This document shows positions 3,703 to 28,395 of a DNA stretch of 32,857 nucleotides, one piece after another. Position numbers and translations under genes: made by a program. Under the pieces are notes generated by a model. The model was given only the letters and a program-made list of their open reading frames with translations, ran no database searches and had not been told where the DNA came from. This DNA is from a bacterium (GTDB lineage: Bacteria; Vulcanimicrobiota; Vulcanimicrobiia; Vulcanimicrobiales; Vulcanimicrobiaceae). How positions within the stretch are numbered: the first letter of the stretch is position 1; each line of letters begins with the position of its first letter. The stretch spans positions 1-32,857 of the forward strand of contig JAKAPQ010000009.1 in the NCBI GenBank assembly GCA_021806945.1, read 5' to 3'.

Positions 3703-4280
3703 CGCGCCTAGCGCGGGATTTCGATATCCGCGAACAGCTCCGCCACCTCGAAATCGAGCCATGGAAGTGCCGGATGCGTGAAGCGCACCCCCGCTTCGTA
3801 GGTTCGCGTATCGCGGACCGTATGTGCCACGATCGCGCGTTCCATCGGATCGACGTCGAGCACGATCGTCGCACCCGTTGCCAGATACCGGGCGATCTTC
3901 CTGGCGAGCAGAGCTACGCGCTGCGACGGCGAGCGCACTTCAGCGGCGATATCCGGCGCAAACGGCGGCTCGTCGGCTTCCTCGTCGCTCAGCGGGCGCA
4001 AACGATCGTACGAAACGTACGCCACATCCGGAACGAACGACGTGTCCGTGCCGTCCGCCGCGCCCAGTCTGAAGCGCCACTCCGTTCCGACCAAACCGCG
4101 CCGCCGCGCGCAGCGATCGATCGCCATGGCAAGCGCGAACTGCACGCGCGCGTGCACCCGTTTGGGGCTCACCTTTGGATAGCGGCGACCGTCGAGATAT
4201 TCGATCTCCGGCCGGTCGTCCAATAACATTGCCATCTCTCGCACTCCATCGGCATTCTATCACGCCAAGCCGCCGGTCGT
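3703..4280. repeat. 578-bp direct repeat, copy 2
   Basis: Same boundaries as 2321-2898 at offset 1382; substitutions clustered toward the 5' end of the encoded gene. Confidence 0.93.
3708..4244 (-). CDS. Uma2-family (DUF820) protein, copy 2
   Basis: Near-identical to 2326-2862; differences mostly in the N-terminal third. Confidence 0.8.
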   Translation of the reverse strand: MREMAMLLDDRPEIEYLDGRRYPKVSPKRVHARVQFALAMAIDRCARRRGLVGTEWRFRLGAADGTDTSFVPDVAYVSYDRLRPLSDEEADEPPFAPDIAAEVRSPSQRVALLARKIARYLATGATIVLDVDPMERAIVAHTVRDTRTYEAGVRFTHPALPWLDFEVAELFADIEIPR

Positions 4281-8350: not shown

Positions 8351-9520
8351 TCAGAGGGCCTCGCTTTGACGAACGTAGCCGACTTCCGTCGCCAAGCGGA
8401 TGAGATCGGCGTCGCGAACCGACCGTCGTTGCGCAGCAAACTCTTTGAATCGCTCTTCGAGGGCGTTACCACGCGACTCGTCGCCATGGAATCCGAGCCG
8501 CGCGGCCCGCTTCAGGAGCGCATGGCGGCCGGAGTTTCGGCCGAGCGGCAAGCTCGTTGCGACGCCTACCGAAGCCGGATCGACGATCTCGTAGGTCGTG
8601 CGCTCCTTCAGTACGCCGTCTTGATGGATGCCCGATTCGTGAGCGAACGCATTCTTGCCGACGATCGCCTTGTTTTTCTGGACGGGCATGTGCGTTGCCG
8701 CAGCGACCGTGCGTGAAAGCCGTTGCAATTTTGCCGCGTCGAAACGCGAGTCACACAAAAACAGGTCCCGTCTCGCACGCAGCGCGCAGACGATCTCCTC
8801 GAGACCGCAATTGCCTGCGCGCTCGCCGATACCGTTGATCGTGCATTCGACCTGCTGGACGCCTCTTTGAACCGCGGCCAGTGCGTTGGCCGTCGCCATC
8901 CCTAAGTCGTCGTGCGTGTGAACGCTCATCGTAACTTCTCCGGCGCGATCGACGTGATCGCGAAGATAGCCGATCAATTCGGAAAACTCGGCAGGCGTCG
9001 TGTACCCGACCGTATCGGGGACATTGATGATCGTGGCGCCGGCGGCGATCACGGCGGAGAATACCTGCGCCAGATATGCTGGGTCCGTGCGGGTCGCGTC
9101 CTCGGCGGAGAACTCAACCTCCGCGCAGCCTTTGCGCGCGTAACGCACGCTCTCGACGGCTAATTCAAGCGCGCTCGCGCGAGAGATGCACAACTTACGT
9201 TGTAAATGAATGTCTGAGGTCGCCAGAAAGACGTGAACGCGCGAGCGCTCGGTGCCGCGTAAACTCGTCACCGCCGCGTCGATATCTCCCCGGGTGCAGC
9301 GAGCGAGCGCCGCAACGCGAGAGGAGCGTACCGCTGCCGCGATCTGCGCGACGCTCTCTGCTACGACGGATGAGGCGGCCGGGAACCCCGCTTCGATCGT
9401 GTCCGCGCCCGCGGCATCGAGCATTTTAGCGATCCTCAAGCGTGCGCTCGCGCTCATCGCCGCGCCCGGCGACTGCTCGCCGTCACGTAAGGTCGTATCG
9501 AATATCTCGATCGCTCTCAC
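8351..9520 (-). CDS. leuA: 2-isopropylmalate synthase-like protein lacking the C-terminal regulatory domain
   Basis: IFDTTLRDGEQSPGAAM, EFSAEDATRTDP, NVPDTVGYTTP, SVHTHDDLGMA, CTINGIGERAGN, NKAIVGKNAFAHESGIHQDGVL, LGRNSGRHAL; ends at 389 aa. Substrate (2-ketoisovalerate or pyruvate) not determinable here. Confidence 0.85.
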   Translation of the reverse strand: MRAIEIFDTTLRDGEQSPGAAMSASARLRIAKMLDAAGADTIEAGFPAASSVVAESVAQIAAAVRSSRVAALARCTRGDIDAAVTSLRGTERSRVHVFLATSDIHLQRKLCISRASALELAVESVRYARKGCAEVEFSAEDATRTDPAYLAQVFSAVIAAGATIINVPDTVGYTTPAEFSELIGYLRDHVDRAGEVTMSVHTHDDLGMATANALAAVQRGVQQVECTINGIGERAGNCGLEEIVCALRARRDLFLCDSRFDAAKLQRLSRTVAAATHMPVQKNKAIVGKNAFAHESGIHQDGVLKERTTYEIVDPASVGVATSLPLGRNSGRHALLKRAARLGFHGDESRGNALEERFKEFAAQRRSVRDADLIRLATEVGYVRQSEAL

Positions 9521-9647: not shown

Positions 9648-9677
9648 ACGCTATCACGGCGGCGCACGGCCGGTCAA
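9648..9677 (-). promoter_or_regulatory. leuA leader promoter: TTGACC-N18-TAGCGT
   Basis: -35 at 9677-9672, -10 at 9653-9648, then 8 nt to ATG 9639. Confidence 0.55.
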
Positions 9678-9680
9678 CGC

Positions 9681-9696
9681 ATTAACGAAGGTTAAT
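9681..9696. promoter_or_regulatory. Putative operator ATTAACGAAGGTTAAT
   Basis: Shared 10-bp-period ATTAA-type repeat; see 16231-16246 and 20289-20304. Confidence 0.5.
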
Positions 9697-9700
9697 CCAT

Positions 9701-9730
9701 TTGACAGCCGCACGTTTTCTCTGGTATGGA
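9701..9730 (+). promoter_or_regulatory. proC promoter: TTGACA-N18-TATGGA
   Basis: TTGACA 9701-9706, TATGGA 9725-9730, 8 nt, ATG 9739. Confidence 0.7.
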
Positions 9731-9738
9731 GAGTCATC

Positions 9739-10587
9739 ATGGAAAACGTAGGAATCATCGGACTGGGAACGATCGGCACGGCCATCGCGGAGGGCCTTCA
9801 CGCGGCGCTCCCGGATCTCGAGATTCTCGGGACGCGGCGCCAAGGCGCCATGCCGGCGTATGTAACACCGTGTGCCGGTAATCGCGAGTTGTTGCGACGG
9901 GCGCGGCTGGTCCTCTTCTGCATCAAGCCCCAGCACGCAACGGCGATCCTCGAGGACCTGCGTCCCGGACTCGGGCCCGAGCATCTCGTGGTTTCGACCT
10001 GTGCCGGGCTCGATATCGACACGCTCTGCAAACATGCCGGTAACGCGAAGGTCGCGCGGGCGATGCCGAATCTTCCATGTCAGATCGGCGAAGGGATGAC
10101 GGCGCTCTGCTTCCCGCCTGCCTGGACCGCAGCAGCGCGCGATCTCGTTACCCGTCTCTTCGATGCGATCGGCAAGACCGTCGTCGTCGAAGAGCGGCAT
10201 TTCGATGCCGTAACGGCGCTCAGCGGATGCGGGCCGGCGTACGTCTACACGATCATCGAGGCCCTGAGCGACGGCGGCGTGAAGCAAGGCCTGCCCAGGG
10301 ATATCTCTAAGCTGCTCGCCGCGCAGACGGTTCTCGGCTCCGCGCAGCTCGTTTTGAGCACGCATCTTCACCCCGCGGAGCTGCGCGACCGCGTGGCCAC
10401 GCCGGCCGGCTGCACGATCGACGCGCTCGCGTGCCTGGAGGACGGGCGTCTGCGGGGCACGCTGATCTCCGCGGTCGCGGCGGCGGCCGAGCGGAGCGCC
10501 GTTCTCACGCGTATAGCAGCCAGCGCTCGCGCCACCGATTCTGACCGCGCGTCGCGTTCAGGTACGCCAGGCGCAGAGATGCCGTAA
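9739..10587 (+). CDS. proC: Pyrroline-5-carboxylate reductase
   Basis: VGIIGLGTIGTAIAEGL, KVARAMPNLPCQIGEGMTAL, ALSGCGPAYVYTIIEALSDGGVKQGL, PAGCTIDALACLEDGRLRGTLISAV. Confidence 0.93.
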   Translation: MENVGIIGLGTIGTAIAEGLHAALPDLEILGTRRQGAMPAYVTPCAGNRELLRRARLVLFCIKPQHATAILEDLRPGLGPEHLVVSTCAGLDIDTLCKHAGNAKVARAMPNLPCQIGEGMTALCFPPAWTAAARDLVTRLFDAIGKTVVVEERHFDAVTALSGCGPAYVYTIIEALSDGGVKQGLPRDISKLLAAQTVLGSAQLVLSTHLHPAELRDRVATPAGCTIDALACLEDGRLRGTLISAVAAAAERSAVLTRIAASARATDSDRASRSGTPGAEMP

Positions 10588-14111: not shown

Positions 14112-14323
14112 GGATTGTTCTCCTTGTCTTCCCGAGCGAGTTTGTCTATTTGCATACGCAGACGTGCGAGCGCTTCGGAGGGGCCGTCGAGATGGATACG
14201 AACGCGAAACGAACCATCGCGCTGCAATGCTTCCACACGCGTGTAGACGCAGCCGAATCGGTGCGCAAGATGAATGAGACGCGCGAGGATCCTACCGTCG
14301 CGTACGTTCAACGCTGCAATCAT
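14108..14323 (-). CDS. Very short acetolactate synthase small subunit (IlvM/IlvN-like ACT domain), 71 aa
   Basis: [37 protein letters not shown]... ACT-like; sits between ilvB and ilvC with ATGA overlaps. Confidence 0.7.
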
Positions 14324-16020
14324 CGCTCCGCCTCCATCATCTCGTGCATCGCCTGGCCGGCCGGAACGATCGGCCAGACGTTCTCCTCGGGATAGCAGGC
14401 GCAGTGCAGCAGCATCGCCGACGGATGCGCGATCAGCCGTTGGAGAGCGCCGGCGAGATCTTCCGGTGCCCGTACCGATTCCGCGCGTATCCCGTACGCG
14501 TGCGCGATCTCGCAGAACTCCGGGTTATCGCTCAGGTTGGTCGCCGAATAACGGGCGTCGTAGAACAACTGCTGCCATTGCCGCACCATACCGAGGTTGC
14601 GGTTGTCGATGAGCACGATCTTTACCGGCAGATCGTAGCGCCGAATCGTCGCCAGCTCGGCGAGCGACATTTGAAATCCACCGTCTCCGACGATCGCCAC
14701 CACCGGGCGCCCCCCAGGCACAAACGCCGCCCCGATCGCCGCGGGAAGGCCGAAACCCATCGTACCCAGCCCCGCGGAGGTCAGAAAATTGCGTGGATGC
14801 GCCGGGCGCGCCCGCTGCGCGGCCCACATTTGATGCTGGCCCACATCGGTTGCCACGATGGCGTCCGGCGCTAGCCGTTCGAAGAGTTCGCCGATTGCAT
14901 CGGTAGCGCTGAGCCTCCCCGATTGAGATCGGTCGCGCGGCAGTGATCCTCCGAGCGCGCGCACGCGCTCGCACCAGTCGTCGAAGGTGGGAATCTGCTG
15001 CCCATCGAGCGCCGCGACCAGTTCGCGGAGCGTTTCGCGCAGATCGCCGTGCAGGCACACGTCCGCGCGAACGATCTTTCCGAATTCGCTGCTGTCGATA
15101 TCGGCATGAACGATCTTCGCGCCGGGGGCGAAGCGATTGGGCGGCCCCGTCACGCGGTCGTCGAACCGCATGCCAAAAGCCAAGATGAGATCGGCCTGCG
15201 CGACGGCGAGATTGGCGGCTTTCCATCCGTGCATTCCGAGCATCCCGAGAAAGCGTTCGTCCTGCGGATCGGCGGCGCCCAATCCGTTGATCGTCGCCGC
15301 GTGCGGCAGGCGCACCCGCTCGCAGAAGCGCCGGTAGACCGCGCTCGCATCCGCAGCACGCACGCCGCCGCCGATTATCGCAACGGGCTGCCGTGCGCTG
15401 CGAATCAATTCGACGGTCGCGGTAACCGCCGCGTGCGACGCACGGGGCAATGTCCTCGAACCAAGCGAACGAATCGGCGTCGAATCCTCCGGAACGATCG
15501 TCTTCAAGACGTCGGTCGGCAGATCGAGTAACACGGGTCCCGGGCGTGGTCCGCGCGCCAATCGAAACGCCGTCCGCAGCGCGGGCAAGAGATCGCGCGC
15601 GTTGCGCACGACGAGGTTGCGTTTGGTGATCGCATGCGTAATTGCGGTAATGTCGGCTTCTTGAAAGCCGTCGGTTCCCATCAGGGTAGTGCTGACCTGG
15701 CCCGTGATGGCGACGAGTGGAATGCTGTCCATCATGGCATCGAGGATCCCGGTAACGAAGTTTGTGGCACCGGGACCAGACGTCGCCACGCAGACGCCGA
15801 CCTTGCCGCTAGCGCGTGCGTATCCGCCCGCTGCAAATACCGCCGCAGCCTCGTGGCGAACCAGAACGTGGCGAAGCCGGTGTCCGAACAGCGCATCGTA
15901 AAGCGGCATGATCGCGCCGCCCGGGTAGCCGAAGATCACCTCGACGCCCTCGGCCCAAATCGCGTCGAGAATGACCCGCGCGCCGGTACGCTGGGCTTGC
16001 TCGGCTCGCTCGGCAATCAC
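14320..16020 (-). CDS. ilvB: Acetolactate synthase large subunit
   Basis: VIFGYPGGAIMPLYDAL, VLVRHEAAAVFAAGGYARASGKVGVCVATSGPGATN, GMRFDDRVTG, GLGTMGFGLPAAIGA, GDGGFQMSLAELATIRRYDLPVKIVLIDNRNLGMVRQWQQLFY (ThDP motif). Confidence 0.96.
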   Translation of the reverse strand: MIAERAEQAQRTGARVILDAIWAEGVEVIFGYPGGAIMPLYDALFGHRLRHVLVRHEAAAVFAAGGYARASGKVGVCVATSGPGATNFVTGILDAMMDSIPLVAITGQVSTTLMGTDGFQEADITAITHAITKRNLVVRNARDLLPALRTAFRLARGPRPGPVLLDLPTDVLKTIVPEDSTPIRSLGSRTLPRASHAAVTATVELIRSARQPVAIIGGGVRAADASAVYRRFCERVRLPHAATINGLGAADPQDERFLGMLGMHGWKAANLAVAQADLILAFGMRFDDRVTGPPNRFAPGAKIVHADIDSSEFGKIVRADVCLHGDLRETLRELVAALDGQQIPTFDDWCERVRALGGSLPRDRSQSGRLSATDAIGELFERLAPDAIVATDVGQHQMWAAQRARPAHPRNFLTSAGLGTMGFGLPAAIGAAFVPGGRPVVAIVGDGGFQMSLAELATIRRYDLPVKIVLIDNRNLGMVRQWQQLFYDARYSATNLSDNPEFCEIAHAYGIRAESVRAPEDLAGALQRLIAHPSAMLLHCACYPEENVWPIVPAGQAMHEMMEAER

Positions 16021-16095: not shown

Positions 16096-16179
16096 TTACG
16101 CAAAGGCCGATCTGCACGGATCCGAATGGAACGGCCTAGTAAGGAGTACGCGTACGAGGAGTCGAGTCGCTATCGGCAT
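16096..16179 (-). CDS. ilv leader peptide MPIATRLLVRVLLTRPFHSDPCRSAFA
   Basis: 27 aa, LLVRVLL cluster; ATG 8 nt after -10; terminator follows. An alternative in-frame ATG lies at 16197. Confidence 0.75.
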   Translation of the reverse strand: MPIATRLLVRVLLTRPFHSDPCRSAFA

Positions 16180-16216: not shown

Positions 16217-16230
16217 CGAATCCGGTGCAT

Positions 16231-16246
16231 ATTAATCGGGATTAAC
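16231..16246. promoter_or_regulatory. Putative operator ATTAATCGGGATTAAC
   Basis: ATTAA repeated at a 10-bp period upstream of the ilv leader promoter; overlaps the lysC stop. Confidence 0.5.
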
Positions 16247-16975
16247 GTTTTCACCGCCGACGTGCGTTCCCAGACCGCTGCGCAAGCCGATAATGCGCAG
16301 GCTCGTCCCCGTTCGGTACGCGAATTCCGCGGCGCGCTCTTGCATCACGCGTGCGCCGCTGCGCGCCAGATCGCGCAATTGTTTTAGCGATAACCGCTCG
16401 AAAGCCGAGGCACCCGGCTGTTCGCGCGGGTCCGCGTCGTACACGCCGTCCACGTCGGTATAGATTTCGAGCGGAACGTTGCCGAGGGACCAGGCGACGG
16501 CAACGGCGGTCAAATCGCTGCCACCGCGCCCGATCGTGGTGAGCCGCCCATCGCCGGTCGAGCCTTGGAAACCGGCCACCACCGGAACGACACCCTCGGC
16601 AACGAGCCGCTCGAGCAGTACCGGCCGTACCGCGACGATCTCGGCATCGCCGTGCGCCTCGTCGGTGAGAATACCGGCTTGCGCTCCGCTCAGCGCGATC
16701 GCACGCACGCCGCGCGCAGATAGTTCCTCGGCAAACAGGCCCGCACTGATCAATTCACCGCACGCGAGCACCAAATCGCGATTCGCGCTGCCCGGCGCAC
16801 TTCCAACCAAGGCTGCCAGTGCATCGGTCGAATACGGCGAGGGCGCTCGGCCGAGTGCCGATACGACGACCACCGGATCGCGTCGTTCCCCAACGGCAGC
16901 CAGCACGCGTCCGATGGCGATCTCCCGCAGTTCGCGCGTCGCAAGCGACGAACCACCGAATTTCTGAACGATCAT
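16232..16975 (-). CDS. lysC: Aspartate kinase, catalytic domain only (247 aa, no ACT)
   Basis: MIVQKFGGSSLATRELREIA, VVVVSALGRAP, TIGRGGSDLTAVAVAWSLG, EIYTDVDGVYDADPR; ends at SGLGTHVGGENVNPD, before where ACT domains would begin. Confidence 0.9.
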   Translation of the reverse strand: MIVQKFGGSSLATRELREIAIGRVLAAVGERRDPVVVVSALGRAPSPYSTDALAALVGSAPGSANRDLVLACGELISAGLFAEELSARGVRAIALSGAQAGILTDEAHGDAEIVAVRPVLLERLVAEGVVPVVAGFQGSTGDGRLTTIGRGGSDLTAVAVAWSLGNVPLEIYTDVDGVYDADPREQPGASAFERLSLKQLRDLARSGARVMQERAAEFAYRTGTSLRIIGLRSGLGTHVGGENVNPD

Positions 16976-17922
16976 AGGCGGCTCACTGCGACCAAATCGC
17001 CAATTATCGCCGACGCCGTTTGCTCGCGCCCCGCTCCAGGCCCGATCAGAGTCAGAGTACCGCATCCACGCCCAATCACGCGAACCACGTTCTGCGCTCC
17101 CGTCGCTGCGGCCATCGGATCGGCAAGCGGCACGACGACCGGCTCGACCACCGCCTCCAATCGAGTGCGATTTCCTTTGAGCGTGGCAACCAAACGCAAG
17201 GCGCCGCCGTCGGCACGCGCGTCGCGGACCTGCCGGCGATCGATCGCCTCGATGCCGGTGCGCGCAATGCTTTGCCACGGGAGCCAGCGCTCGAACGCGG
17301 CGTGAGCGAGCAGCGAGAGCTTTTGCGCCGTGTCGGTGCCGTTGAGATCGTTCGCGGGATCGGACTCGGCATATCCGTGTGCCCGCGCCGATTCGAGCGC
17401 GGCGCCGAACTCGCAGCCGGCTTCCATTGCGACCAAGATGTAGTTGGTCGTGCCGTTCAGGATTCCGGATATTTCGAGGATCTCTTCGCCGGCCAGCGCC
17501 GAGCGCAGCACGGAGAGCGCCGGAATAGCACCGCCCACTGCTGCGTCGAACAGCAGCTGGACGCCGCGATCGCCGGCAAATGCGAAAAGTTCCGGTCCGT
17601 GCGTTGCGATGAGCGCTTTGTTGGCAGAGACGACGTGCTTGCCGCAGGCTATCGCCTCCTTTACGAGATCGTATGCCGGCTCGAGCCCGCCCAGGCATTC
17701 GACGATCACGTGGGTGCGCGAGTCTCGAATAACATCCATGGCATCCGCGGTCACATGCGCCATGACTGCCTGCGGGTGACGCGTTTTTCGAACGTCGCGT
17801 ACGAGTACGCCCCGAAGCGAAAACGCCGCCACGTCGCGGTCGTGCGCGTGCAGTAGGCGCTCTGCTACGCCGCTGCCGACGGTTCCGCACCCAAGGAGGC
17901 CGACGTTCACGGTGCGTTTCAT
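16972..17922 (-). CDS. hom: Homoserine dehydrogenase without C-terminal ACT domain
   Basis: VNVGLLGCGTVGSGVAERL, VSANKALIATHG, FDAAVGGAIPALSVLR, ILNGTTNYIL, GYAESDPANDLNGTDTAQKLSLLA; 316 aa. Confidence 0.94.
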   Translation of the reverse strand: MKRTVNVGLLGCGTVGSGVAERLLHAHDRDVAAFSLRGVLVRDVRKTRHPQAVMAHVTADAMDVIRDSRTHVIVECLGGLEPAYDLVKEAIACGKHVVSANKALIATHGPELFAFAGDRGVQLLFDAAVGGAIPALSVLRSALAGEEILEISGILNGTTNYILVAMEAGCEFGAALESARAHGYAESDPANDLNGTDTAQKLSLLAHAAFERWLPWQSIARTGIEAIDRRQVRDARADGGALRLVATLKGNRTRLEAVVEPVVVPLADPMAAATGAQNVVRVIGRGCGTLTLIGPGAGREQTASAIIGDLVAVSRL

Positions 17923-18809
17923 GCCGTCGCCTTCGTAACAAGCAACCCCTGCGATGCAATCGCCGTCGGCACGATCCGCGCACCGACTCCGGCACGCCTA
18001 AAACACGCCGCTACGCGATCCGGCGCGTCGCCCGCGCCACCCTCCGAGAGCAGCAACACGCTTGGCCCGGCCCCGGACAGCACGACGTGCACGCCGAAAG
18101 CCGATTGCCCTAGCGCTTCCGAAAGACCTGGGAAAAGCGCTGCCCGGTACGGTTGATGAACGCAATCGCGAGTGGCGAGATCGAGCCGTGCGAGCCGCCC
18201 GCTCGCCAAACAAGCCGCCAGCATGCTCGCGCGCTGTAACGATCGGCCGACGTCGGCGCGCGCGTACGATGCCGGCAGCACCCGTCGCGCGGCAGCCGTA
18301 TCCAACGGGCGATCGGGAATGACGAGCGTGCAGCGCAGCGCCTCCGGCACCGGCAACGGCAACGTGCAGAGGTGCGGCCCTTCTTGCAGCACGAAACATA
18401 AGCCGCCGTAAAGTGCCGCCGCTGCGTTATCGGCGTGGCCTTCGGCCTGCACGAGTAAGCGCAGCATTTCATCTCTCGAGACCGCGTCGCCCCGAGCTCG
18501 GTTCGCAATCGTCATCCCGCAGAGCAACGCTGCAGCGCTACTGCCCAAACCGGCTCCAAGCGGAATATCGTTGTGAATATCGATCTCGAAGGCAAACGAT
18601 TGTGGAGCCTCGGCGATCAATGCGATGCCCGCGCGAACGCGCTCGGCCAGCCCGTCATGCGTCGGCAGCTGCGAACCGGTAACGCGTACGTACGGCGGAC
18701 CATCGCCGGCTCTCGCGCGTGCCGTCATGCGCAGATCGAGCGCGATCGCGACCGAATCGAATCCCGAGCCGAGATTCGCCGAGCTAGCCGGCACGCTGAC
18801 TTCGATCAT
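17919..18809 (-). CDS. thrB: Homoserine kinase (GHMP family)
   Basis: VPASSANLGSGFDSVAIAL, DIPLGAGLGSSAAALLCGM, HADNAAAALYGGL, VVLSGAGPSVLLL. Confidence 0.94.
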   Translation of the reverse strand: MIEVSVPASSANLGSGFDSVAIALDLRMTARARAGDGPPYVRVTGSQLPTHDGLAERVRAGIALIAEAPQSFAFEIDIHNDIPLGAGLGSSAAALLCGMTIANRARGDAVSRDEMLRLLVQAEGHADNAAAALYGGLCFVLQEGPHLCTLPLPVPEALRCTLVIPDRPLDTAAARRVLPASYARADVGRSLQRASMLAACLASGRLARLDLATRDCVHQPYRAALFPGLSEALGQSAFGVHVVLSGAGPSVLLLSEGGAGDAPDRVAACFRRAGVGARIVPTAIASQGLLVTKATA

Positions 18810-20074
18810 CGGAGCGCCTCCACGATCGCCCGCTCCAGCGACGGCAGATCGCCGGCAACGCGGCGCAACGGATTCGCTAACGTCTTACTTGGGTCGCCAT
18901 GGTAGCGCTCGATGCTCGCGACGTCTTTGAGGCTCGATCCGGTAAGAAGCGCGACGACGTCGTCTGCAGCGGCGATCGTGCCGCGTTCGCGTAACGCCGC
19001 CGCACCCGCCAGCGTTGCGGCCGAAGCGGGTTCGCAGGCCAGCCCGTCGCGCGCGAGCACGGCGCGCGCTTCCGCGATTGGATCGTCGTCGATCGCGATA
19101 GCGGTGCCGGCAGTCGCATGCAGAGCGCGCAGCGCCGGACGCCAAGAGACCGGGTTCCCGATTTTGATCGCGGTCGCAAACGTCGTGGCATGCACCGGGA
19201 CGAGCGGTTCGTTCTGCTGCCATGCGCGCACGAACGGCGCGGCACCCGCAGCTTGCACGACGGCGATTCGCGGCACGCGCTCTGCCAAACCGAGCGCCTG
19301 CGCTTGTAGAAATCCCTGCGCGAGCGCCACGCAATGTCCGAGGTTGCCGCCCGGAACGATGACCCAATCGGGCGCGCGCCACCCACGGGCTTCGAGCAAT
19401 TCGAACGCAACGGTCTTCTGCCCCTCGCGCCGGAACGGGTTGAGGGAGTTGACGAGATAGACGGCGCCACGTAGCGCGAGCTCGCGCGCCGCCTGCATCG
19501 CAACGTCGAAGTCGCCGTCGATGACGAGCGCGATCGCGCCCGCATCGAGCGCCTGCGCGAGCTTCGATGTTGTCACATGCCCCGCGGGTAAGAGCACCAC
19601 CGCCGGCAGGCCCGCGCGCGCTGCATAGACGGCCAAACTTGCCGAGGTATTCCCCGTACTGGCGCACGCCAGAACGCTCGCGCCAGCGGCTCGCGCCCGG
19701 GTTACGGCGACGGTCATCCCCGCATCTTTGTACGAACCGGTCGGATTGCAACCGAGATGCTTGACCGCGAGTCTCTCGAGCCTGCTCCAGGCTGCCGCTC
19801 GTTCCGCACGCAACTCCGGAGCGTTGCCTTCTTGAAGCGTCACGATTTGCGAATCGTTCACGGGTGGCAAGAGCTCGCGAAATCGCCAAACACCGCTACG
19901 TTCGTGCAACACCTGCGAGGCCAGCCTCGAACGGAACACGGCGCGTGCGTCGCGCGGCAGCGTGAGGCCCCGCTCGTACGTGACGTTAACCACATCGCCG
20001 CACGATGCGCACGGCATCGATTCCGATCTTTCAGGCGCATTTGTCGCGCACGTCCCGCATGATAACACCAACAT
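18806..20074 (-). CDS. thrC: Threonine synthase
   Basis: N-terminal CGTC/CASC zinc-ribbon-like motif, KHLGCNPTGSYKDAGMTVAV, ACASTGNTSASLAVYAARAG, VPGGNLGHCVAL. ATG 20074 preceded by GAGGAG. Confidence 0.93.
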   Translation of the reverse strand: MLVLSCGTCATNAPERSESMPCASCGDVVNVTYERGLTLPRDARAVFRSRLASQVLHERSGVWRFRELLPPVNDSQIVTLQEGNAPELRAERAAAWSRLERLAVKHLGCNPTGSYKDAGMTVAVTRARAAGASVLACASTGNTSASLAVYAARAGLPAVVLLPAGHVTTSKLAQALDAGAIALVIDGDFDVAMQAARELALRGAVYLVNSLNPFRREGQKTVAFELLEARGWRAPDWVIVPGGNLGHCVALAQGFLQAQALGLAERVPRIAVVQAAGAAPFVRAWQQNEPLVPVHATTFATAIKIGNPVSWRPALRALHATAGTAIAIDDDPIAEARAVLARDGLACEPASAATLAGAAALRERGTIAAADDVVALLTGSSLKDVASIERYHGDPSKTLANPLRRVAGDLPSLERAIVEALR

Positions 20075-20100
20075 TAAGGTCTCGCTCCTCTTATGCAAAC

Positions 20101-20125
20101 GGCCCCCACCATCTCGGTGAGGGCC
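20101..20125 (-). terminator. thr attenuator hairpin
   Basis: Minus strand GGCCCTCACC-GAGAT-GGTGGGGGCC, 10-bp stem, weak T tract (GTTTG). Confidence 0.65.
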
Positions 20126-20152
20126 GCCGTCGACTGCTAGGAATTCTAGCGA

Positions 20153-20236
20153 TTACGACAATAGCGCGCCCACCGAGCTCCCGAAGGTGCTCGTAACGGT
20201 CGTCTGCGAAGTGCTAATCATCGCGGATGCATACAT
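20153..20236 (-). CDS. thr leader peptide MYASAMISTSQTTVTSTFGSSVGALLS
   Basis: 27 aa with five Thr and one Ile; ATG 8 nt after -10; attenuator hairpin follows, then thrC. Confidence 0.8.
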   Translation of the reverse strand: MYASAMISTSQTTVTSTFGSSVGALLS

Positions 20237-20244
20237 GTCTGGTT

Positions 20245-20273
20245 AACCTAGCATGCAACCGGTGGAGTGTCAA
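20245..20273 (-). promoter_or_regulatory. thr operon promoter: TTGACA-N17-TAGGTT
   Basis: Consensus -35 at 20273-20268, -10 at 20250-20245, ATG at 20236. Confidence 0.75.
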
Positions 20274-20288
20274 TCGTTCTACGGCCGT

Positions 20289-20304
20289 ATTAAGCCATAT
20301 TAAC
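20289..20304. promoter_or_regulatory. Putative operator ATTAAGCCATATTAAC
   Basis: ATTAA repeated at a 10-bp period, 15 nt upstream of the thr -35. Confidence 0.55.
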
Positions 20305-20312
20305 GATCTCGT

Positions 20313-21593
20313 TTACCGCACGAACAGATAGCCTTGGTTCGGAATCGTCAGGATGTACCTCGGGTTCGCGGGATCTTCCTCGATCTTCTTGCGCAGGTTA
20401 TGCATGTGCACGCGCAGCGCCGCGAGTTCTTCTTTACCGTCCGACCCAAAGAGGCAACGCGCAGCCTCCTCCGCCTCGACGACGCGCCCAACGTTGTCAA
20501 CGAGCACCTTGAGCAACATCGCCTGGCGCACCCCCAAACGCACTTCGCGTCCGTTGACCCGCAGCTTCCGCAATTTCAGATCGAAAAGTATCGAAGCCAC
20601 AGCCGGGAGCGTGCTGCCCGTTACGAACGCCTCATGCAGGGCTTGTTCGGCCGCGGCCGCCTCGTGCTCCTGAAGTAGCAGCGAAATCGTGACGTTGCTA
20701 TCCGTAAAATGGAGGACCGTGATGTCGCGCTCCCGGAGCGCGGCAAAGACTTTACAGAAGACGCCGACCGTGCTTCTGATCCCACTTCCCACGACGCACA
20801 CTTTCGCGCAATGGGTCGTGGCGTGCGAGTGCAGCGAGAGTTCTGCGGCGATGTCTTGCGCGAGGTTGACGCGGTCCGCGTCGACGGTGAAGCGCATTCG
20901 CTTAGGAAAGAACTGCAGCATCTCGAGCGATACGCCACGGTCCGCAAGCTGCTCGATCATCTGCGTTCGCTGCCTCCGCCAGCGATCGCCATCGTCGTGC
21001 GTCGGGCGCACGCTTACGAATGCGGCCCCCGTCGATATGGTAATGGACGTAACCGGTTTCGAGCGTTCTTCGAACGCGTCGTCTCGAACGATCGTCCCGC
21101 GATTCTCAAGAACGCTGCGGATTTCATAGGGTACGCCCAACTCGCGCGCCCGCTCGGCCGCAACGGGCGGCAGCGCGCCGGCGCGCAGATCCGCGAGTTC
21201 CATCAACTCCATGTAACTTGCAAACTCTACGGTGGTTGCCGTCGGCACGCGTGCCGGATCGGCGGACATTACGCCGTGCGCATCGGTGTATACGATGACG
21301 CGTGCCGACTCGAGCCTCGCGGCGAGCGCCATCGCCTCAGCCTGACCCCCCCCGACCAGGATCGGCATCCCGCTGTGCGAACGATCGCCGGCATCTCCTA
21401 TCGCACGATGGTCTGGAAACAGCGTCGACGAGCAGCCCCGCTGCAATAGTGCGCCGGCGACGGCCGCGGGCGATGCGCAGACGACGATGACCGCCGCCCC
21501 CCCGTCCCGAAGGTCGGCGATCCGTGCGACGATGGCATCCATCAATCGTGCGTTCTCTACGACCGGGCGCCCGAAAGTGACGACGTCAACCAT
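20313..21593 (-). CDS. Chimeric regulator: degenerate aspartokinase-like domain, two ACT domains, C-terminal OmpR/PhoB-type winged helix
   Basis: AK-like: VGGGQAEAMALAARLESARVIVYTDAHGVMSADPARVPTATTVEFASYMELMELADLRAGALPPVAAERARELGVPYEIRS. ACT: VCVVGSGIRSTVGVFCKVFAALRERDITVLHFTDSNVTISLLL. wHTH: LRKLRVNGREVRLGVRQAMLLKVLVDNVGRVVEAEE...LRVHMHNLRKKIEEDPANPRYILTIPNQGYLFVR. Confidence 0.88.
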   Translation of the reverse strand: MVDVVTFGRPVVENARLMDAIVARIADLRDGGAAVIVVCASPAAVAGALLQRGCSSTLFPDHRAIGDAGDRSHSGMPILVGGGQAEAMALAARLESARVIVYTDAHGVMSADPARVPTATTVEFASYMELMELADLRAGALPPVAAERARELGVPYEIRSVLENRGTIVRDDAFEERSKPVTSITISTGAAFVSVRPTHDDGDRWRRQRTQMIEQLADRGVSLEMLQFFPKRMRFTVDADRVNLAQDIAAELSLHSHATTHCAKVCVVGSGIRSTVGVFCKVFAALRERDITVLHFTDSNVTISLLLQEHEAAAAEQALHEAFVTGSTLPAVASILFDLKLRKLRVNGREVRLGVRQAMLLKVLVDNVGRVVEAEEAARCLFGSDGKEELAALRVHMHNLRKKIEEDPANPRYILTIPNQGYLFVR

Positions 21594-22006
21594 TGGCGAG
21601 AACGCCGGTCAGCAGGATCGCCTCGAATGCGGCCGTGCGCGGGCCGGCCAAAATTGAATCGCTCTCGCTCGGGTTACGCATTTCGATGGTAAAGTCGGGT
21701 TTGGCACACTTGGCCGGGACACCGTTGAACGAATGGTGATGGGAGACGTCTACCACGTTCGCGGGGCACTCGGCGAGCAGCGTGGAGATCTGCAGGAGCG
21801 CACCGGGTGCGTCGACGATCTGCGCAGGGTTGCCGGCCGGGGCCGCGACCAACCCGCTCGCGCGCGCGGCTTTTGAGCGTCACGTTCGCTCCGGTCAGTC
21901 GTGAGGGCGCCGGCGAGTGGCGGAATGCGGTATCTAGCACGATCCCCGAAAGCTGCGCGTGCGCGGCCTCGAGGTCGCTGAAAGACGGTATCGTGGCGAT
22001 CGTCAT
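21586..22006 (-). pseudogene. ilvA (threonine dehydratase) remnant: N-terminus joined to C-terminal ACT domain, catalytic core missing, frame broken
   Basis: 22006 onward: FSDLEAAHAQLSGIVLDTAFRHSPAPSRLTGANVTLKS (ilvA N-term). Other frame from TTG 21852: DAPGALLQISTLLAECPANVVDVSHHHSFNGVPAKCAKPDFTIEMRNP (ilvA-type ACT). Confidence 0.75.
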
Positions 22007-22082: not shown

Positions 22083-22160
22083 CTACGCAGTCGCCATCCG
22101 TCGCCGGTTCGATACCGTGCGCATAATCGTAAGGGTGGCAAGCATAAAAGCGCGGAACAT
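22083..22160 (-). CDS. Leader peptide MFRAFMLATLTIMRTVSNRRRMATA
   Basis: 25 aa with ATLTIMRTV; ATG 8 nt after -10 (TAAAGT); hairpin follows. Confidence 0.7.
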   Translation of the reverse strand: MFRAFMLATLTIMRTVSNRRRMATA

Positions 22161-23216: not shown

Positions 23217-23575
23217 CCTTGGAGACGGAGAGCATCACCGGTTTCGGCTTAACGACCGTCTTGTGGCGCTTGCCCAGGAACGTGTCGAACGCGTTAGGCT
23301 TGGACTTCCGAGGCCAAGAATGAGGCAAGAAACTTCTGCAATTTCTACGCCTCCTTTTCGGGCACGACTTCCCCGTCGCCGGGGGAACGGGGCGCTCCGG
23401 TTCTTCACCACGAGCCAACGACGGCAGACGCCGCATGGCTGGAGCCATTGCGCTGTTTCTCGATAGCGCACTTAGAAAGACCACGCGCCGCGCGCGGAGA
23501 AAGCCAAGAGGAGCACATGCACAACGAATAAGGCTTTCAGAACGGGAGGTCGCGGCAGGACGCCAACGTGCGGTC

Positions 23576-25777
23576 ATGATCGCTTCGCCACGCCGGCAAG
23601 AACTGGTGAACGAACTGCGGCGCGCAGAACGCCCGATAGCGCTGTGCGCTCCGCCGGGCTACGGCAAATCGACGTTTGCCGCGATGCTGCGCGAAAACGG
23701 CGTGTATGCTCCCATCGAGGAATCCCGCACGTGCCCACAACTGAAAGGAGCGGCGATCGTCGGCCCTTCGCAACTCGCCTTCGACGAGGCCGAGATGCGC
23801 ACGCTACTCGCCCCGTTCGAGCTTTCGCCTACGGCGTTCGCGCAGGTCGTGGAGTTGACGCGCGGCTGGCCCGCCGGAGCGCTCTACTTCCGGCGCCTGG
23901 CGCATCTGGGACTCCTCGACGACGCCTTGACTGACCTTCGCTCGGCTGCATACGACGATCTCTACGATTACCTCGACGAGCAGGTGCTGAGGCCGTGCAC
24001 CGCAGGGACGCGTGAGGCGTTACTACTTCGAACCGCCTGCGAACGCGACGAGTTCCTGCTCGTTGAGGATCCGGCGTCGCGGCTGAAAGACGTGCCGATG
24101 CTGCTCTGCGATGCCGATGGGCACAAGTGGGTACATCCGCTGCTTAAGGCTGCCGTCCGGGCCCGGCAAGGAAGAGAACTGATCGCGTACTGTCTGCGGC
24201 GTTCGCTGGCGGCCGAACGGAGCAGTGAGCCGATGCTTGCGGCGTACTGGGCGATCGCGGCCGAGCATTTTGAGCGTGCGGCGCAGCTGCTCGATGGCAT
24301 AGCGCTCGACGAGAACGGCCGAGCCGTGGCGGCGAGATTACCCTTTGCGGAATTGCTGCGGCATCCACGGCTATGGACGGCGACGCTCAATGAACGCGAA
24401 GCGCGCAGCACACCGCACGAACGCTTGCTCGAAGCCGCGGCAATCGCAGACGTTGCCTTGCAGACGCTCTCGCCTGCGGAGCACGTCGCCGCGATCGCCT
24501 GCGCCGCTCGCGCACACATGGCAATGGGCAACGTGACGGCCGCTCTGGCAGCATGCGAAGATCCACGAGCCGCGGGCTACGCCTCGTCCGAGGTTCGCGC
24601 GCTGAGGCTCTACCGTTCCATATTGCTCGATCGCATGTACGGCGATCGAGAGACGGAGATACGGTCGGAATTAGGAGCCTTGGCGGGAGAGTGCACGGCG
24701 GTTGTCGCAATGGCGCACGTGCAATTGGCGCGCAACGCTGCTCTGCGCGGCATCCAAGATATCGCGGCCGAGCACTGGGGCCCAGCATGCGCGATCGCGG
24801 AGGCGTTGCCGGATCCCGTCTTGGAATACGAAGTCCGCGCAGAGCGGGCGCTCGTAACCGTATTCCTCGGAGGCAACGTGCAAAGCCTTGCTATCGAACC
24901 GGGCCCGGAAGAATCGACCATGCGAGCGCTAGCACTCGCCGCACTCCTACGACTCGCAGGGTCGCGGGGCGACGGCGCGCGACGGGTGGATGAAGCTTTG
25001 CGCTTAGCGTTTGCAATCGGCGACCGCTTTTTGGAAGATGCAGGGCGAATGCTGGCAAGTCACGAGCGGGTCCGAACGACGATCGAGATAGCGCTTTTTA
25101 GCGGGGAGGTTCGCAAGAATGCTGCCCTGCTGAGTTGCTCGCAGCGGGAATATGCCGTGCTCTTTACGTTGGCTGCCGCTCCCGGTCGAGCTATGAATGC
25201 GAAACGACTGGCCGAAAGCATATGGGCCACTCGAAACATGGAGTCGTCGCGGCGAGCCCTCAAGGTCACCGTCTCGCGGCTGCGCGCCCGCTTAGGAGAT
25301 CGTGCGATGGTGTGTTTCCGGAGGGGCCGCTATGCGCTGCCGGAAGAGATCACGGTAGACCTGCCGGAACTCGTCGCCGCGCTGAGCGCCGCCACGGCCG
25401 ACGGCAACGTCGAGCGACTTTGCCGATTCCGGAGTCTGTTGAGGGCGACGCGTCCGCCGCGGCTGCGCGACGCCGAATGGTTTGCACCGGTCGAAACGCG
25501 CTTGAACGCGCTCCGTCACGAGCTTGCGCGGGCGCTGGCGCAGTCCTCACTGGCCTGCCATGATGCGCAAGAGCTGCGCGCACTCGGCCTGGATCTGTTG
25601 GCTGCCGATCCTTGCGACGAGTACGGTTGCGAGCTGGTAATACGCAGCTATTTGCTCGGGGAAGACACGCGAGCAGCCGTCGTCGCGTACGAGCGCTTCG
25701 CGCAGGTGGTACACGACGAACTCGGTGCCGTACCGTCGCCCGCACTGCGCGCCCTTGCCGAGCGAACGCGGCAATGA
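23576..25777 (+). CDS. MalT-like transcriptional regulator with reduced NTPase, winged helix and BTAD domain
   Basis: APPGYGKST Walker A; LTRGWPAGALYFRRLA; SCSQREYAVLFTLAAAPGRAMNAKRLAESIW...LKVTVSRLRARLG wHTH; C-terminal BTAD-like ...CDEYGCELVIRSYLLGEDTRAAVVAYERFAQVVHDELGAVPSPALRAL. Confidence 0.8.
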   Translation: MIASPRRQELVNELRRAERPIALCAPPGYGKSTFAAMLRENGVYAPIEESRTCPQLKGAAIVGPSQLAFDEAEMRTLLAPFELSPTAFAQVVELTRGWPAGALYFRRLAHLGLLDDALTDLRSAAYDDLYDYLDEQVLRPCTAGTREALLLRTACERDEFLLVEDPASRLKDVPMLLCDADGHKWVHPLLKAAVRARQGRELIAYCLRRSLAAERSSEPMLAAYWAIAAEHFERAAQLLDGIALDENGRAVAARLPFAELLRHPRLWTATLNEREARSTPHERLLEAAAIADVALQTLSPAEHVAAIACAARAHMAMGNVTAALAACEDPRAAGYASSEVRALRLYRSILLDRMYGDRETEIRSELGALAGECTAVVAMAHVQLARNAALRGIQDIAAEHWGPACAIAEALPDPVLEYEVRAERALVTVFLGGNVQSLAIEPGPEESTMRALALAALLRLAGSRGDGARRVDEALRLAFAIGDRFLEDAGRMLASHERVRTTIEIALFSGEVRKNAALLSCSQREYAVLFTLAAAPGRAMNAKRLAESIWATRNMESSRRALKVTVSRLRARLGDRAMVCFRRGRYALPEEITVDLPELVAALSAATADGNVERLCRFRSLLRATRPPRLRDAEWFAPVETRLNALRHELARALAQSSLACHDAQELRALGLDLLAADPCDEYGCELVIRSYLLGEDTRAAVVAYERFAQVVHDELGAVPSPALRALAERTRQ

Positions 25778-28395
25778 CCGTTACGTCGCCATACGTCGTC
25801 GAGCGCGACCTCGTTGACGCGCTAGTCGCCTGCAAGGCAAAAGTCTACCGGTTGATCGCTCCGGCGGGCTTCGGCAAGTCCTTCATGGCGGCGCAGATCG
25901 GCCGCCGCTTTCCGAAAAGCGCGGTCTGTGACTGTCTAGGAGTGCGGGAGACCGTCGAGCTGGCGCAACGCCTGATCGAAGCCTTCTCAGTGCTCGCAGG
26001 AGAGCGTGGCAAGCGAATTAAGGACGAGACAGCGTCTCTTGCATTCTCGAGCGTCGACGAACGGCGAGCATACCTCGAACAGATCTGGGATGCGTTGCCG
26101 GATTATGGCGTTTTGATCGTCGAGAACGCCGAAGAGATCCTCGATCGGCGGGAGGCGCTCGCCTTCCTGGCGACGTTGTTTGCGAAGCGCCCACGCGGTG
26201 CGCTGGTCGTGTGCAGTCGCAACGACCTTCCTCTGCGCTGGAGCGACGCGCTGTTTCCGCACGAGAACATCGCAGTACGCGAGCAGCACCTACGCTTCTC
26301 GAGGGAAGAGTTCGCAGCACTCTTTGACGGCACTATGGTCTCTTCCGCGGAAATCGCTCACACGTACGCCTGGGCGGGCGGTTGGCCGTTCGCGGCAGCG
26401 CAGGTGGCTCGATACATGCGTGAAGGTGGCGACATGCGCGGGCTGACGCCGGAAGGAACGTCACCGCAGGATCTTGCCGAGAAGCTGCTCGAGCAGTTAT
26501 TGTGCTCGCTGCCGGAAGACCTGCGTACCGGCGTGATTCGCTGCGCCGCGATCACACAGCCTCGTGCGGAAGATTTCTCCGGAAGCGGTGATGCGCTCGG
26601 AGCGCCGGCCTTTGCCGATCGTTTGGTGAGCGCGTTTCCGTTCATAACGCGGCGCGTCGACGGAACCTACGAGATGCATCCGATAGCGCGTGCCACGATC
26701 GTACGTCTGCATGGCGCGGCGTTCGACGCGATCATCGGAAGGGTGGTCGCGGACGCGCGCCGTCGTGGGGACCATCTGCGATGCGCGGAGCTGCATCTGC
26801 AATGGGGCGACGAAGACAAAGCGGCGCGCGCACTGATTCGCGTGGGAATGGGTACGATGGACCTCCCAGCGCCGCGGTATCTCGCGGTACTCGAACGCTT
26901 GGGGCGCGGCGTCCTCGTCCGCTTTCCGCAGCTTTGGGCGCTGTCGTCCATCTATTGGCAGAATCGCTTCGGTTCACTCGCGGGAGAGGTGCAACATATC
27001 GTTGCGCGGCTACCCCGGAGTGTTCCTCTGGAGACACGTGCTGCATGTATTGCGATCGCGTGCTACCATCTCTCCGATCGCGGAGAATGGCAAGGAGCAT
27101 TTCACCTGCTCGATTCCTTCGAGAAATTTCTGCGCCATAACGGAAGAACGGCTGAACGGGAGGATGTGTGTGCATATATTCCGATCTTTCATGCGTACGC
27201 TGCGGTCAGCAACGGGAAGGAGTACGCTGATGCAGAACTGTGGCGGCGTTACGGCTCGGCGATCTCGCGTTCCGACATCGCGCTGACCGAACATTATACG
27301 ACCGAGGCGCGCATCGCTTTCTTGCGCGGTCGACTCGAACTTGCGGCAGCATCGCTCGAGCGAATGGTCGCCGCAGCGCGCCGGACGCGCTATCCCACGC
27401 ACGAAAGGATCGCGCTCGGGAAAGCCATAGCAATCGCATGGTTGCTGGGCGATGATGAAGCGCTTGAGCGCTATCGTACGGATCTCCTGACGCTCCTGCG
27501 CGATCCTATGGTTCCGGATGATCTTGCCGCGCACGAAGCGGAGCAACTGCTCGATGCTTCATGGGGGTTGCCATGGAGCGGCACGGAGCGGACGAAGGGC
27601 GACGCGTCCTTCCTGCGTTTGATGTACGCCGCTGCCGCGTTGGAGGAGGAGGATGCGCTGGCTGCGCTTGAAGAGGCATATGGAATCGCCACTGCGACGC
27701 GTAGTTTTTGGGGAGTTACGCTTGCGTACACCGCGCTAGCGTGCTTCGACCCCGAACGAAGCGCGCTACTCGACGAAGCGTTGAGCTATGCCGAACGCAG
27801 CGATTTCTCTGCATTTCGAGAGGCCATCACGTCGGTCCGTGGAGATCGTGTTTCGTGCGGTTCTTTGACACGTTTCGCGCAAAGGTTCCGCGAGGCCGGA
27901 GAACGCGCGCGTACCTGCGTGCACGTCGATCTCCTGTGCCGGCGCCTGCGCCGCAACGGCGAGGTGCTCCGCCTGGGAAAGCGAGAGCTCGAACTTGTTT
28001 TGCTGCTCGCTGCCCGCGGCCAGTCCGTGCAACGCATGGAACTGGTCGACGCCTTCTGGCCGGGGCGCGGCGAAGACGCCGCATTCAACGCGTTGAAGGC
28101 CTGCGTGAACCGCGTGCGCAGGCGCACGCGTAGCCAGGAGTTGATCGTGGCAACGGCCGGCGATTATGCGCTCTCCCCACAGGTCGCATGCGTCGATCTC
28201 GACGTCGCGGAGTGCTATGCTGAGATTGCCAAGCGCGGTTGCGTTGCCGCCATGCGTGCCGGTACGAGGCTCTTGCGCGACCTTCCCGAGGATCTCGACA
28301 TGCCTGCATCGTGGGGTGCCCGGGCCGCAGAGCGCGTACGAGCGTTGCGCGCACGCACGGCAGAGCCGGGCTCTAGCCCGCTCGCGTCTCAGTGA
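25774..28395 (+). CDS. MalT-like/STAND NTPase transcriptional regulator with C-terminal winged helix
   Basis: APAGFGKSF Walker A, GVLIVENAEEI Walker B-like, ALVVCSRNDLPLRWSDALFPHENIAVREQHLRFSREEFAAL, helical repeats, wHTH LRLGKRELELVLLLAARGQSVQRMELVDAFWPG. ATGA overlap with the upstream gene. Confidence 0.82.
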   Translation: MTVTSPYVVERDLVDALVACKAKVYRLIAPAGFGKSFMAAQIGRRFPKSAVCDCLGVRETVELAQRLIEAFSVLAGERGKRIKDETASLAFSSVDERRAYLEQIWDALPDYGVLIVENAEEILDRREALAFLATLFAKRPRGALVVCSRNDLPLRWSDALFPHENIAVREQHLRFSREEFAALFDGTMVSSAEIAHTYAWAGGWPFAAAQVARYMREGGDMRGLTPEGTSPQDLAEKLLEQLLCSLPEDLRTGVIRCAAITQPRAEDFSGSGDALGAPAFADRLVSAFPFITRRVDGTYEMHPIARATIVRLHGAAFDAIIGRVVADARRRGDHLRCAELHLQWGDEDKAARALIRVGMGTMDLPAPRYLAVLERLGRGVLVRFPQLWALSSIYWQNRFGSLAGEVQHIVARLPRSVPLETRAACIAIACYHLSDRGEWQGAFHLLDSFEKFLRHNGRTAEREDVCAYIPIFHAYAAVSNGKEYADAELWRRYGSAISRSDIALTEHYTTEARIAFLRGRLELAAASLERMVAAARRTRYPTHERIALGKAIAIAWLLGDDEALERYRTDLLTLLRDPMVPDDLAAHEAEQLLDASWGLPWSGTERTKGDASFLRLMYAAAALEEEDALAALEEAYGIATATRSFWGVTLAYTALACFDPERSALLDEALSYAERSDFSAFREAITSVRGDRVSCGSLTRFAQRFREAGERARTCVHVDLLCRRLRRNGEVLRLGKRELELVLLLAARGQSVQRMELVDAFWPGRGEDAAFNALKACVNRVRRRTRSQELIVATAGDYALSPQVACVDLDVAECYAEIAKRGCVAAMRAGTRLLRDLPEDLDMPASWGARAAERVRALRARTAEPGSSPLASQ

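Follow-up and report, generated by a model that had tools for sequence, protein, structure and literature searches.

The window analysed here (the whole stretch of DNA, 32,857 nucleotides) carries on its minus strand, in this order, a leader peptide, a probable remnant of ilvA, a regulator gene, a 215-bp gap and the operons thrC-thrB-hom-lysC and ilvB-ilvC-ilvD-ilvE, with leuA and a divergent proC farther along in the minus-strand direction, beyond the ilv operon (Table 1). The regulator gene is one uninterrupted reading frame, from an ATG at 21593 to a stop at 20313, and its start is overlapped by the stop of the ilvA remnant (ATGGTTGA), in which a large internal part of ilvA is missing. The thr operon ends in a lysC without ACT domains, as the first-pass annotation of this DNA had stated, and among 99 genomes of the family a second, ACT-less LysC was found only in the window's genus. 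We make no claim, from the short LeuA or from Hom, that allosteric domains have been lost generally in this DNA; the closest LeuA proteins of genomes without the regulator mostly lie in frames that are similarly short. A frame of about 75 aa between ilvB and ilvC (14319-14112, minus strand) resembles a minimal IlvM/IlvN regulatory subunit.

Table 1. Features of the regulator locus and of its candidate target operons, in window coordinates
Feature	Position	Strand	Basis or remark
Leader peptide MFRAFMLATLTIMRTVSNRRRMATA, upstream of ilvA remnant/regulator	22083..22160	-	conserved in G001 and G002
Probable ilvA remnant: N-terminal piece, then C-terminal piece in another frame	21586..22006	-	weak Pfam ACT matches only
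Regulator gene, 426 aa: degenerate aspartokinase lobe, two ACT domains, winged helix	20313..21593	-	ORF, Pfam, conservation
Shortened aspartokinase-like part, residues 1-180	21054..21593	-	PDB and aspartokinase alignment, Pfam
Tandem ACT, residues 181-325, presumed amino-acid sensor	20619..21053	-	Pfam, AlphaFold model, fold search
PhoB/OmpR-type winged helix, residues 335-426	20316..20591	-	Pfam, comparison within family
Candidate operator 1 (thr operon), direct repeat TTAATATGGCTTAATA	20288..20303	-	16 nt from TTGAC
thr promoter: TTGACA, 17 nt, TAGGTT	20245..20273	-	by eye
Thr-rich leader peptide MISTSQTTVTSTFGSSVGALLS	20153..20221	-	thr operon
Attenuator-like hairpin CGGCCCTCACCGAGATGGTGGGGGCCG, then TTT	20100..20126	-	thr operon
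thrC (threonine synthase), first in target operon 1	18806..20098	-	PALP Pfam match and position
thrB (homoserine kinase)	17919..18809	-	Pfam
hom (homoserine dehydrogenase, no ACT domain match)	16972..17922	-	Pfam
lysC, catalytic aspartokinase without ACT	16232..16975	-	ORF, family search
Candidate operator 2 (ilv operon), TTAATCCCGATTAATA	16230..16245	-	overlaps lysC stop, 15 nt from TTGAC
ilv leader peptide MPIATRLLVRVLLTRPFHSDPCRSAFA, then GC-rich hairpin and TTTTTCTT	16096..16179	-	
ilvB, first in target operon 2, then ilvC, ilvD, ilvE	14320..16020	-	
proC, divergent target 3	9739..10587	+	
Candidate operator 3, two-faced, between leuA and proC	9673..9706	both	also in G001 and G002
leuA-type 2-isopropylmalate synthase, target 3	8351..9520	-	

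The architecture proposed on first reading, an aspartokinase-like region followed by two ACT domains and a winged helix, is borne out by Pfam matches above cut-offs, by alignment and by a fold search. In Pfam, Trans_reg_C (residues 348-424, 6.9e-16), ACT_9 (265-323) and ACT_7 (260-321) all lie above their gathering cut-offs, as does an AA_kinase match at residues 78-151 that covers only profile positions 148-225 of 234, in the C-lobe. The first ACT domain (about 181-250) has no Pfam match of its own and is seen in the alignment with aspartokinases and in the AlphaFold model. NCBIfam aspartate-kinase models cover about residues 81-325 with scores far under their cut-offs, and sequence matches in the PDB are to aspartokinases for residues 80-331 and to KdpE/RegX3-type winged helices for 320-426. 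The AlphaFold model has a mean pLDDT of 72 (mostly above 80 in the ACT region, poor in residues 105-180); aspartokinases rank first in a fold search with it, and the ACT pair superimposes on isolated aspartokinase regulatory parts with a TM of about 0.75-0.80 (0.79 for that of 2re1). Pfam gave no match in the regulator to a receiver domain of the OmpR/PhoB type, to the TyrR-type domains (sigma54-type AAA+, Fis-type HTH) or to the Lrp/AsnC domains (AsnC-type HTH, RAM).

The kinase part was described at the outset as shortened and probably dead, and the comparison agrees. No complete amino-acid-kinase domain above a family cut-off was found in the regulator with Pfam or NCBIfam, its N-lobe lacks about 70 residues relative to the same genome's own aspartokinase, and TFGRPVV stands where aspartokinases have KFGG(S/T)S, with YTDAHGVMSADP kept. 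Loss of this motif predicts no aspartate kinase activity, which we regard as implausible for this protein.

A core of the two ACT domains and the winged helix (ACT2-wHTH) was present in 8 of the 99 genomes, from five genera (hereafter, carriers). Identity over the core is 93-100% among the three genomes of the window's genus (the other two being G001 and G002) and 47-60% for the five others, which represent four further genera. A frameshift or assembly chimera artificially joining two genes, one way in which the fusion could have been spurious, is excluded, since the reading frame runs uninterrupted across this junction in seven further genomes, each assembled separately, at 98-47% identity. 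Searching the wider phylum added no carriers, and a non-exhaustive scan of GTDB r220 with two peptide patterns gave full-core matches only in members of the same family, labelled Candidatus Eremiobacterota wherever named. We define the fusion family here by an aspartokinase-type ACT pair and a winged helix with RVHxHNLRKKIE, with at least 47% identity over ACT2-wHTH; the window's regulator belongs to it. This recognition-helix region is identical in all members except at x, and the fusion regulators form a single clade in the tree (support 100). Within the window's genus, dN/dS is 0.02-0.05 for the ACT domains, 0.03-0.10 for the winged helix and 0.09-0.22 for the kinase part; the ACT domains and winged helix are under strong purifying selection and the kinase part is the least constrained. 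The three carriers of the window's genus are close relatives of one another, and so is the pair from the G071 genus; the counts therefore overstate how many cases are independent.

Erosion of the kinase part has gone to different lengths across the family. Most of it is kept in G027, whose regulator has 456 aa, compared with 426 aa in the window's genus, and less of it in G110; the regulators of G071, G073 and G103 consist of ACT-ACT-wHTH only. As three members have lost the kinase part, catalysis cannot be the function common to the family. A complete, ACT-bearing aspartokinase is kept on contig C127 of the window's genome and in nearly all relatives, and the ACT module was therefore duplicated. 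The first-pass annotation had it moved off the enzyme and onto a DNA-binding protein: the joining to a winged helix stands, but the enzyme on C127 is intact and the fusion is a paralogue, which eliminates a transfer from the only aspartokinase. The tree, which has long branches and one outgroup fragment, did not single out an aspartokinase clade as the source of the ACT pair. Among the winged helices of G002, the nearest one found belongs to the PhoB encoded beside phoR and pstB. Judging from these sequences, a PhoB-type winged helix may have been joined to an aspartokinase paralogue, its half-site being kept and the context changed. If this is true, the stages by which an allosteric feedback domain became a transcription factor are still visible, from the near-complete kinase part of G027 through the shortened ones of the window's genus and G110 to its absence in G071, G073 and G103.

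The thr, ilv and leu/proC promoters of the window share a candidate operator, a direct repeat TTAAY-N5-TTAAY with a 10-bp period that lies upstream of TTGAC promoters. The segment 20245-20310, singled out beforehand as a place where the protein might bind, contains both candidate operator 1 (read 20303-20288) and the thr promoter, and this operator is conserved in G001 and G002, the two other genomes of the genus. Candidate operator 3 reads TTAACCTTCGTTAAT then TTGAC on its minus face, toward leuA, and TTAACGAAGGTTAAT then TTGACA on its plus face, toward proC. The distance to TTGAC falls into two classes one helical turn apart, 4-6 or 15-16 nt, with the thr, ilv and his sites in the latter. 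A consensus promoter scan missed the promoters that we describe by eye, whose support is therefore alignment and position.

Defined post hoc from the sequences themselves, the pattern TTAAN6TTAAN{4,17}TTGAC has four matches at three places in the window and none in 100 shuffles, and it occurs in 7 of the 8 carriers compared with 8 of the 91 non-carriers of the family (Fisher p = 3e-6, for relatives that are not independent). All matches in carriers precede amino-acid operons or the regulator gene, namely thr, ilv and leu/proC in the window's genus, trpD in G071 and G073, his and cys in G103 and the regulator gene in G110. Repeats without the standard spacing are found before cys genes in G027 and in G110 (the latter without TTGAC) and before the regulator in G027. 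The exact TTAAT repeat was rejected as the operator of the trp carriers G071 and G073, where the match needs TTAAC. Upstream of thrC and ilvB, carriers have no mismatch to TTAAT-N5-TTAAT and non-carriers at least three. In the G071 genus, trpG and trpD of the two carriers are separated by a site, a promoter, a Trp-rich leader (MYLVRWCVNWCSDHPGGW) and a terminator; in the ten non-carriers with a readable region, trpG abuts trpD and there is no site. In G007, a non-carrier, a weaker repeat (TTAAA/TTAAG) stands together with TTGAC and a leader containing Met/Cys ahead of a sulfite-reductase gene (C3:217584-217617); it may be an exception or the site of another regulator.

Most promoters with a candidate site are followed by a leader peptide rich in the cognate residues; examples in other genera are the his (MDEYSLLVASRHHHHHGPPGPCCE) and cys (MLHRRKGRGMCCCVSSFCKGAEVIAT) leaders of G103 and the cys leader of G110 (MFEVSARKPFMCPFPCCRTGLFRLSM). 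On the minus strand of the window, the attenuators extend over 16179-16046 (ilv), 20221-20100 (thr) and, tentatively, about 9639-9523 (leu); in G001 and G002 the Thr leader has a lower Thr content. The leader peptide upstream of the ilvA remnant precedes a terminator-like hairpin reaching to about 22027, with a sub-threshold Rfam Thr_leader match; the ilvA attenuator has apparently passed to the regulator. In G001 and G002, where ilvA is almost gone, a Thr/Ile-type leader and hairpin equivalent to 22160-22027 are kept. We discarded attenuation as a carrier trait: ilvB attenuators occur widely across the family, non-carriers included, so that attenuation predates the regulator, which would add a layer to it. 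Amino-acid pathways are patchy in the phylum, with thrC in 27 and ilvB in 18 of 46 family genomes at the thresholds used.

Taken as a whole, we read the fusion as a one-component transcription factor of amino-acid biosynthesis that senses through its ACT domains, binds TTAAY-N5-TTAAY and most likely activates when the amino acid is scarce, a reading to which we assign a probability of about 0.76. A duplicated aspartokinase would have ceased to work as a kinase and acquired a C-terminal PhoB-type winged helix. Its tandem ACT domains would sense an amino acid, most likely Thr or Ile in the window's genus, and its winged helices would bind the repeats just upstream of the -35 box at the thr, ilv and leu/proC promoters. 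Upon amino-acid scarcity, the regulator would then activate these promoters, on top of leader-peptide attenuation. Other carriers may apply the same ACT-wHTH core to trp, his or cys operons. Its gene lies after trpA in G071 and G073 and after metX in G103, and adjoins sulfate-assimilation genes in G027 and G110 (gene names from translations). The first-pass annotation proposed a Thr/Lys-sensing regulator; since the regulators adjoin trp, met or cys genes and the sites lie at trp, his and cys operons, the effector probably differs among members.

Regarding the sign of control, we lean toward activation, by a modest preference. At thr, ilv and his, the site is separated by 15-16 nt from the -35 box downstream of it and so falls outside the core promoter, as is the case for PhoB-type activators. 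The regulator gene itself lies downstream of starvation-type attenuators, an arrangement that suits an activator better without being decisive. The same protein and sites could instead make a repressor: with the amino acid bound, the ACT domains would promote DNA binding and the operons would be shut off. This less probable but serious alternative follows the classical logic of end-product control, and some sites do abut the -35 box (4-6 nt); in G027, the site immediately before the start codon of the regulator, where a repressor might be expected, also points this way as far as autoregulation is concerned. A different protein could also be the one that binds. The phylum's PhoB has the most similar winged helix found, and its boxes are TTAAT repeats of the same 10-bp period, a resemblance by which PhoB could bind some of the sites. 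That the repeats are simply Pho boxes, with the fusion protein acting elsewhere, is nevertheless improbable: non-carriers have PhoB too, yet only carriers show the sites at amino-acid promoters, and Pho boxes near pst are mostly CTTAAT with T-rich spacers, unlike the amino-acid sites.

The presence of the second, ACT-less LysC only in the three genomes that have the fusion next to thr genes raises the thought that the ACT pair serves mainly as a trans regulatory subunit of this enzyme, in an arrangement like that of alpha2beta2 aspartokinases, with DNA binding secondary. We consider this unlikely, as the search found no second ACT-less LysC in the other five carriers, where ACT and winged helix are conserved all the same, and as the winged helix is itself under strong selection. 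It would be just as much of a long shot for the fusion of the window's genus to capture the ACT-less LysC in trans in addition, one ligand gating both aspartokinase and thr/ilv/leu transcription, and for the sensor to be retuned elsewhere to Trp, His or Cys. An eroded kinase part and an upstream ilvA remnant might suggest a non-functional relic of gene fusion; with the low dN/dS in ACT and winged helix (0.02-0.10) and conservation across genera together with matching sites, this is very improbable.

The regulator shares tandem ACT domains and a partial kinase C-lobe (residues 80-331) with the regulatory region of aspartokinase LysC (C. glutamicum 3ab4/3aaw, Thermus 2dt9); in contrast to LysC, it lacks the catalytic N-lobe motif and has a winged helix, and by motif would be no enzyme. 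With the response regulators PhoB, KdpE and OmpR it shares the C-terminal Trans_reg_C winged helix and perhaps the binding of direct repeats near the -35 box, for which there are candidates with a carrier-specific distribution, but an aspartokinase-derived ACT sensor takes the place of the receiver domain, which would leave no phosphorelay. TyrR/PhhR and Lrp/AsnC carry ACT or ACT-like sensors on transcription factors that control biosynthesis, and so likewise couple ACT-type amino-acid sensing to DNA binding; they differ in DNA-binding domain and domain order, and the ACT pair described here is of aspartokinase origin, with a kinase remnant. Metabolic enzymes have been reused as sensors of DNA-binding proteins in MocR/PdxR (aminotransferase and wHTH) and in the ROK repressors (sugar kinase-like domain and wHTH), whereas our regulator derives from a different enzyme and keeps mainly its allosteric part, having lost the catalytic one. 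As for control in two layers, one report (PMC5794164) describes dual control of ilv in S. aureus by CodY and a leucine-rich attenuator, similarly a DNA-binding amino-acid sensor over leader-peptide attenuation; CodY is global and belongs to another family, while the fusion regulator is aspartokinase-derived and more local.

No description of regulators combining aspartokinase or ACT domains with Trans_reg_C was found in the open-access full texts searched. The allosteric region of aspartokinase would be a new source for an enzyme-derived one-component regulator, and it comes with a candidate regulon. If the proposed mechanism is true, a phylum without studied amino-acid regulation gains a first regulon for which a candidate operator is defined, and in several pathways a DNA-level switch overlies leader-peptide attenuation. 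Being small, the ACT-wHTH core might also be a model on which to engineer amino-acid sensors.

Two further features of the window deserve mention. Beside the cluster, the plus strand encodes two large proteins (23435-28395) with AAA-like and Trans_reg_C regions, one of them with BTAD. On the minus strand, two near-identical ORFs of 178 aa (VREMAMLLDDRPE...), at 2326-2862 and 3708-4244, represent a recent duplication.
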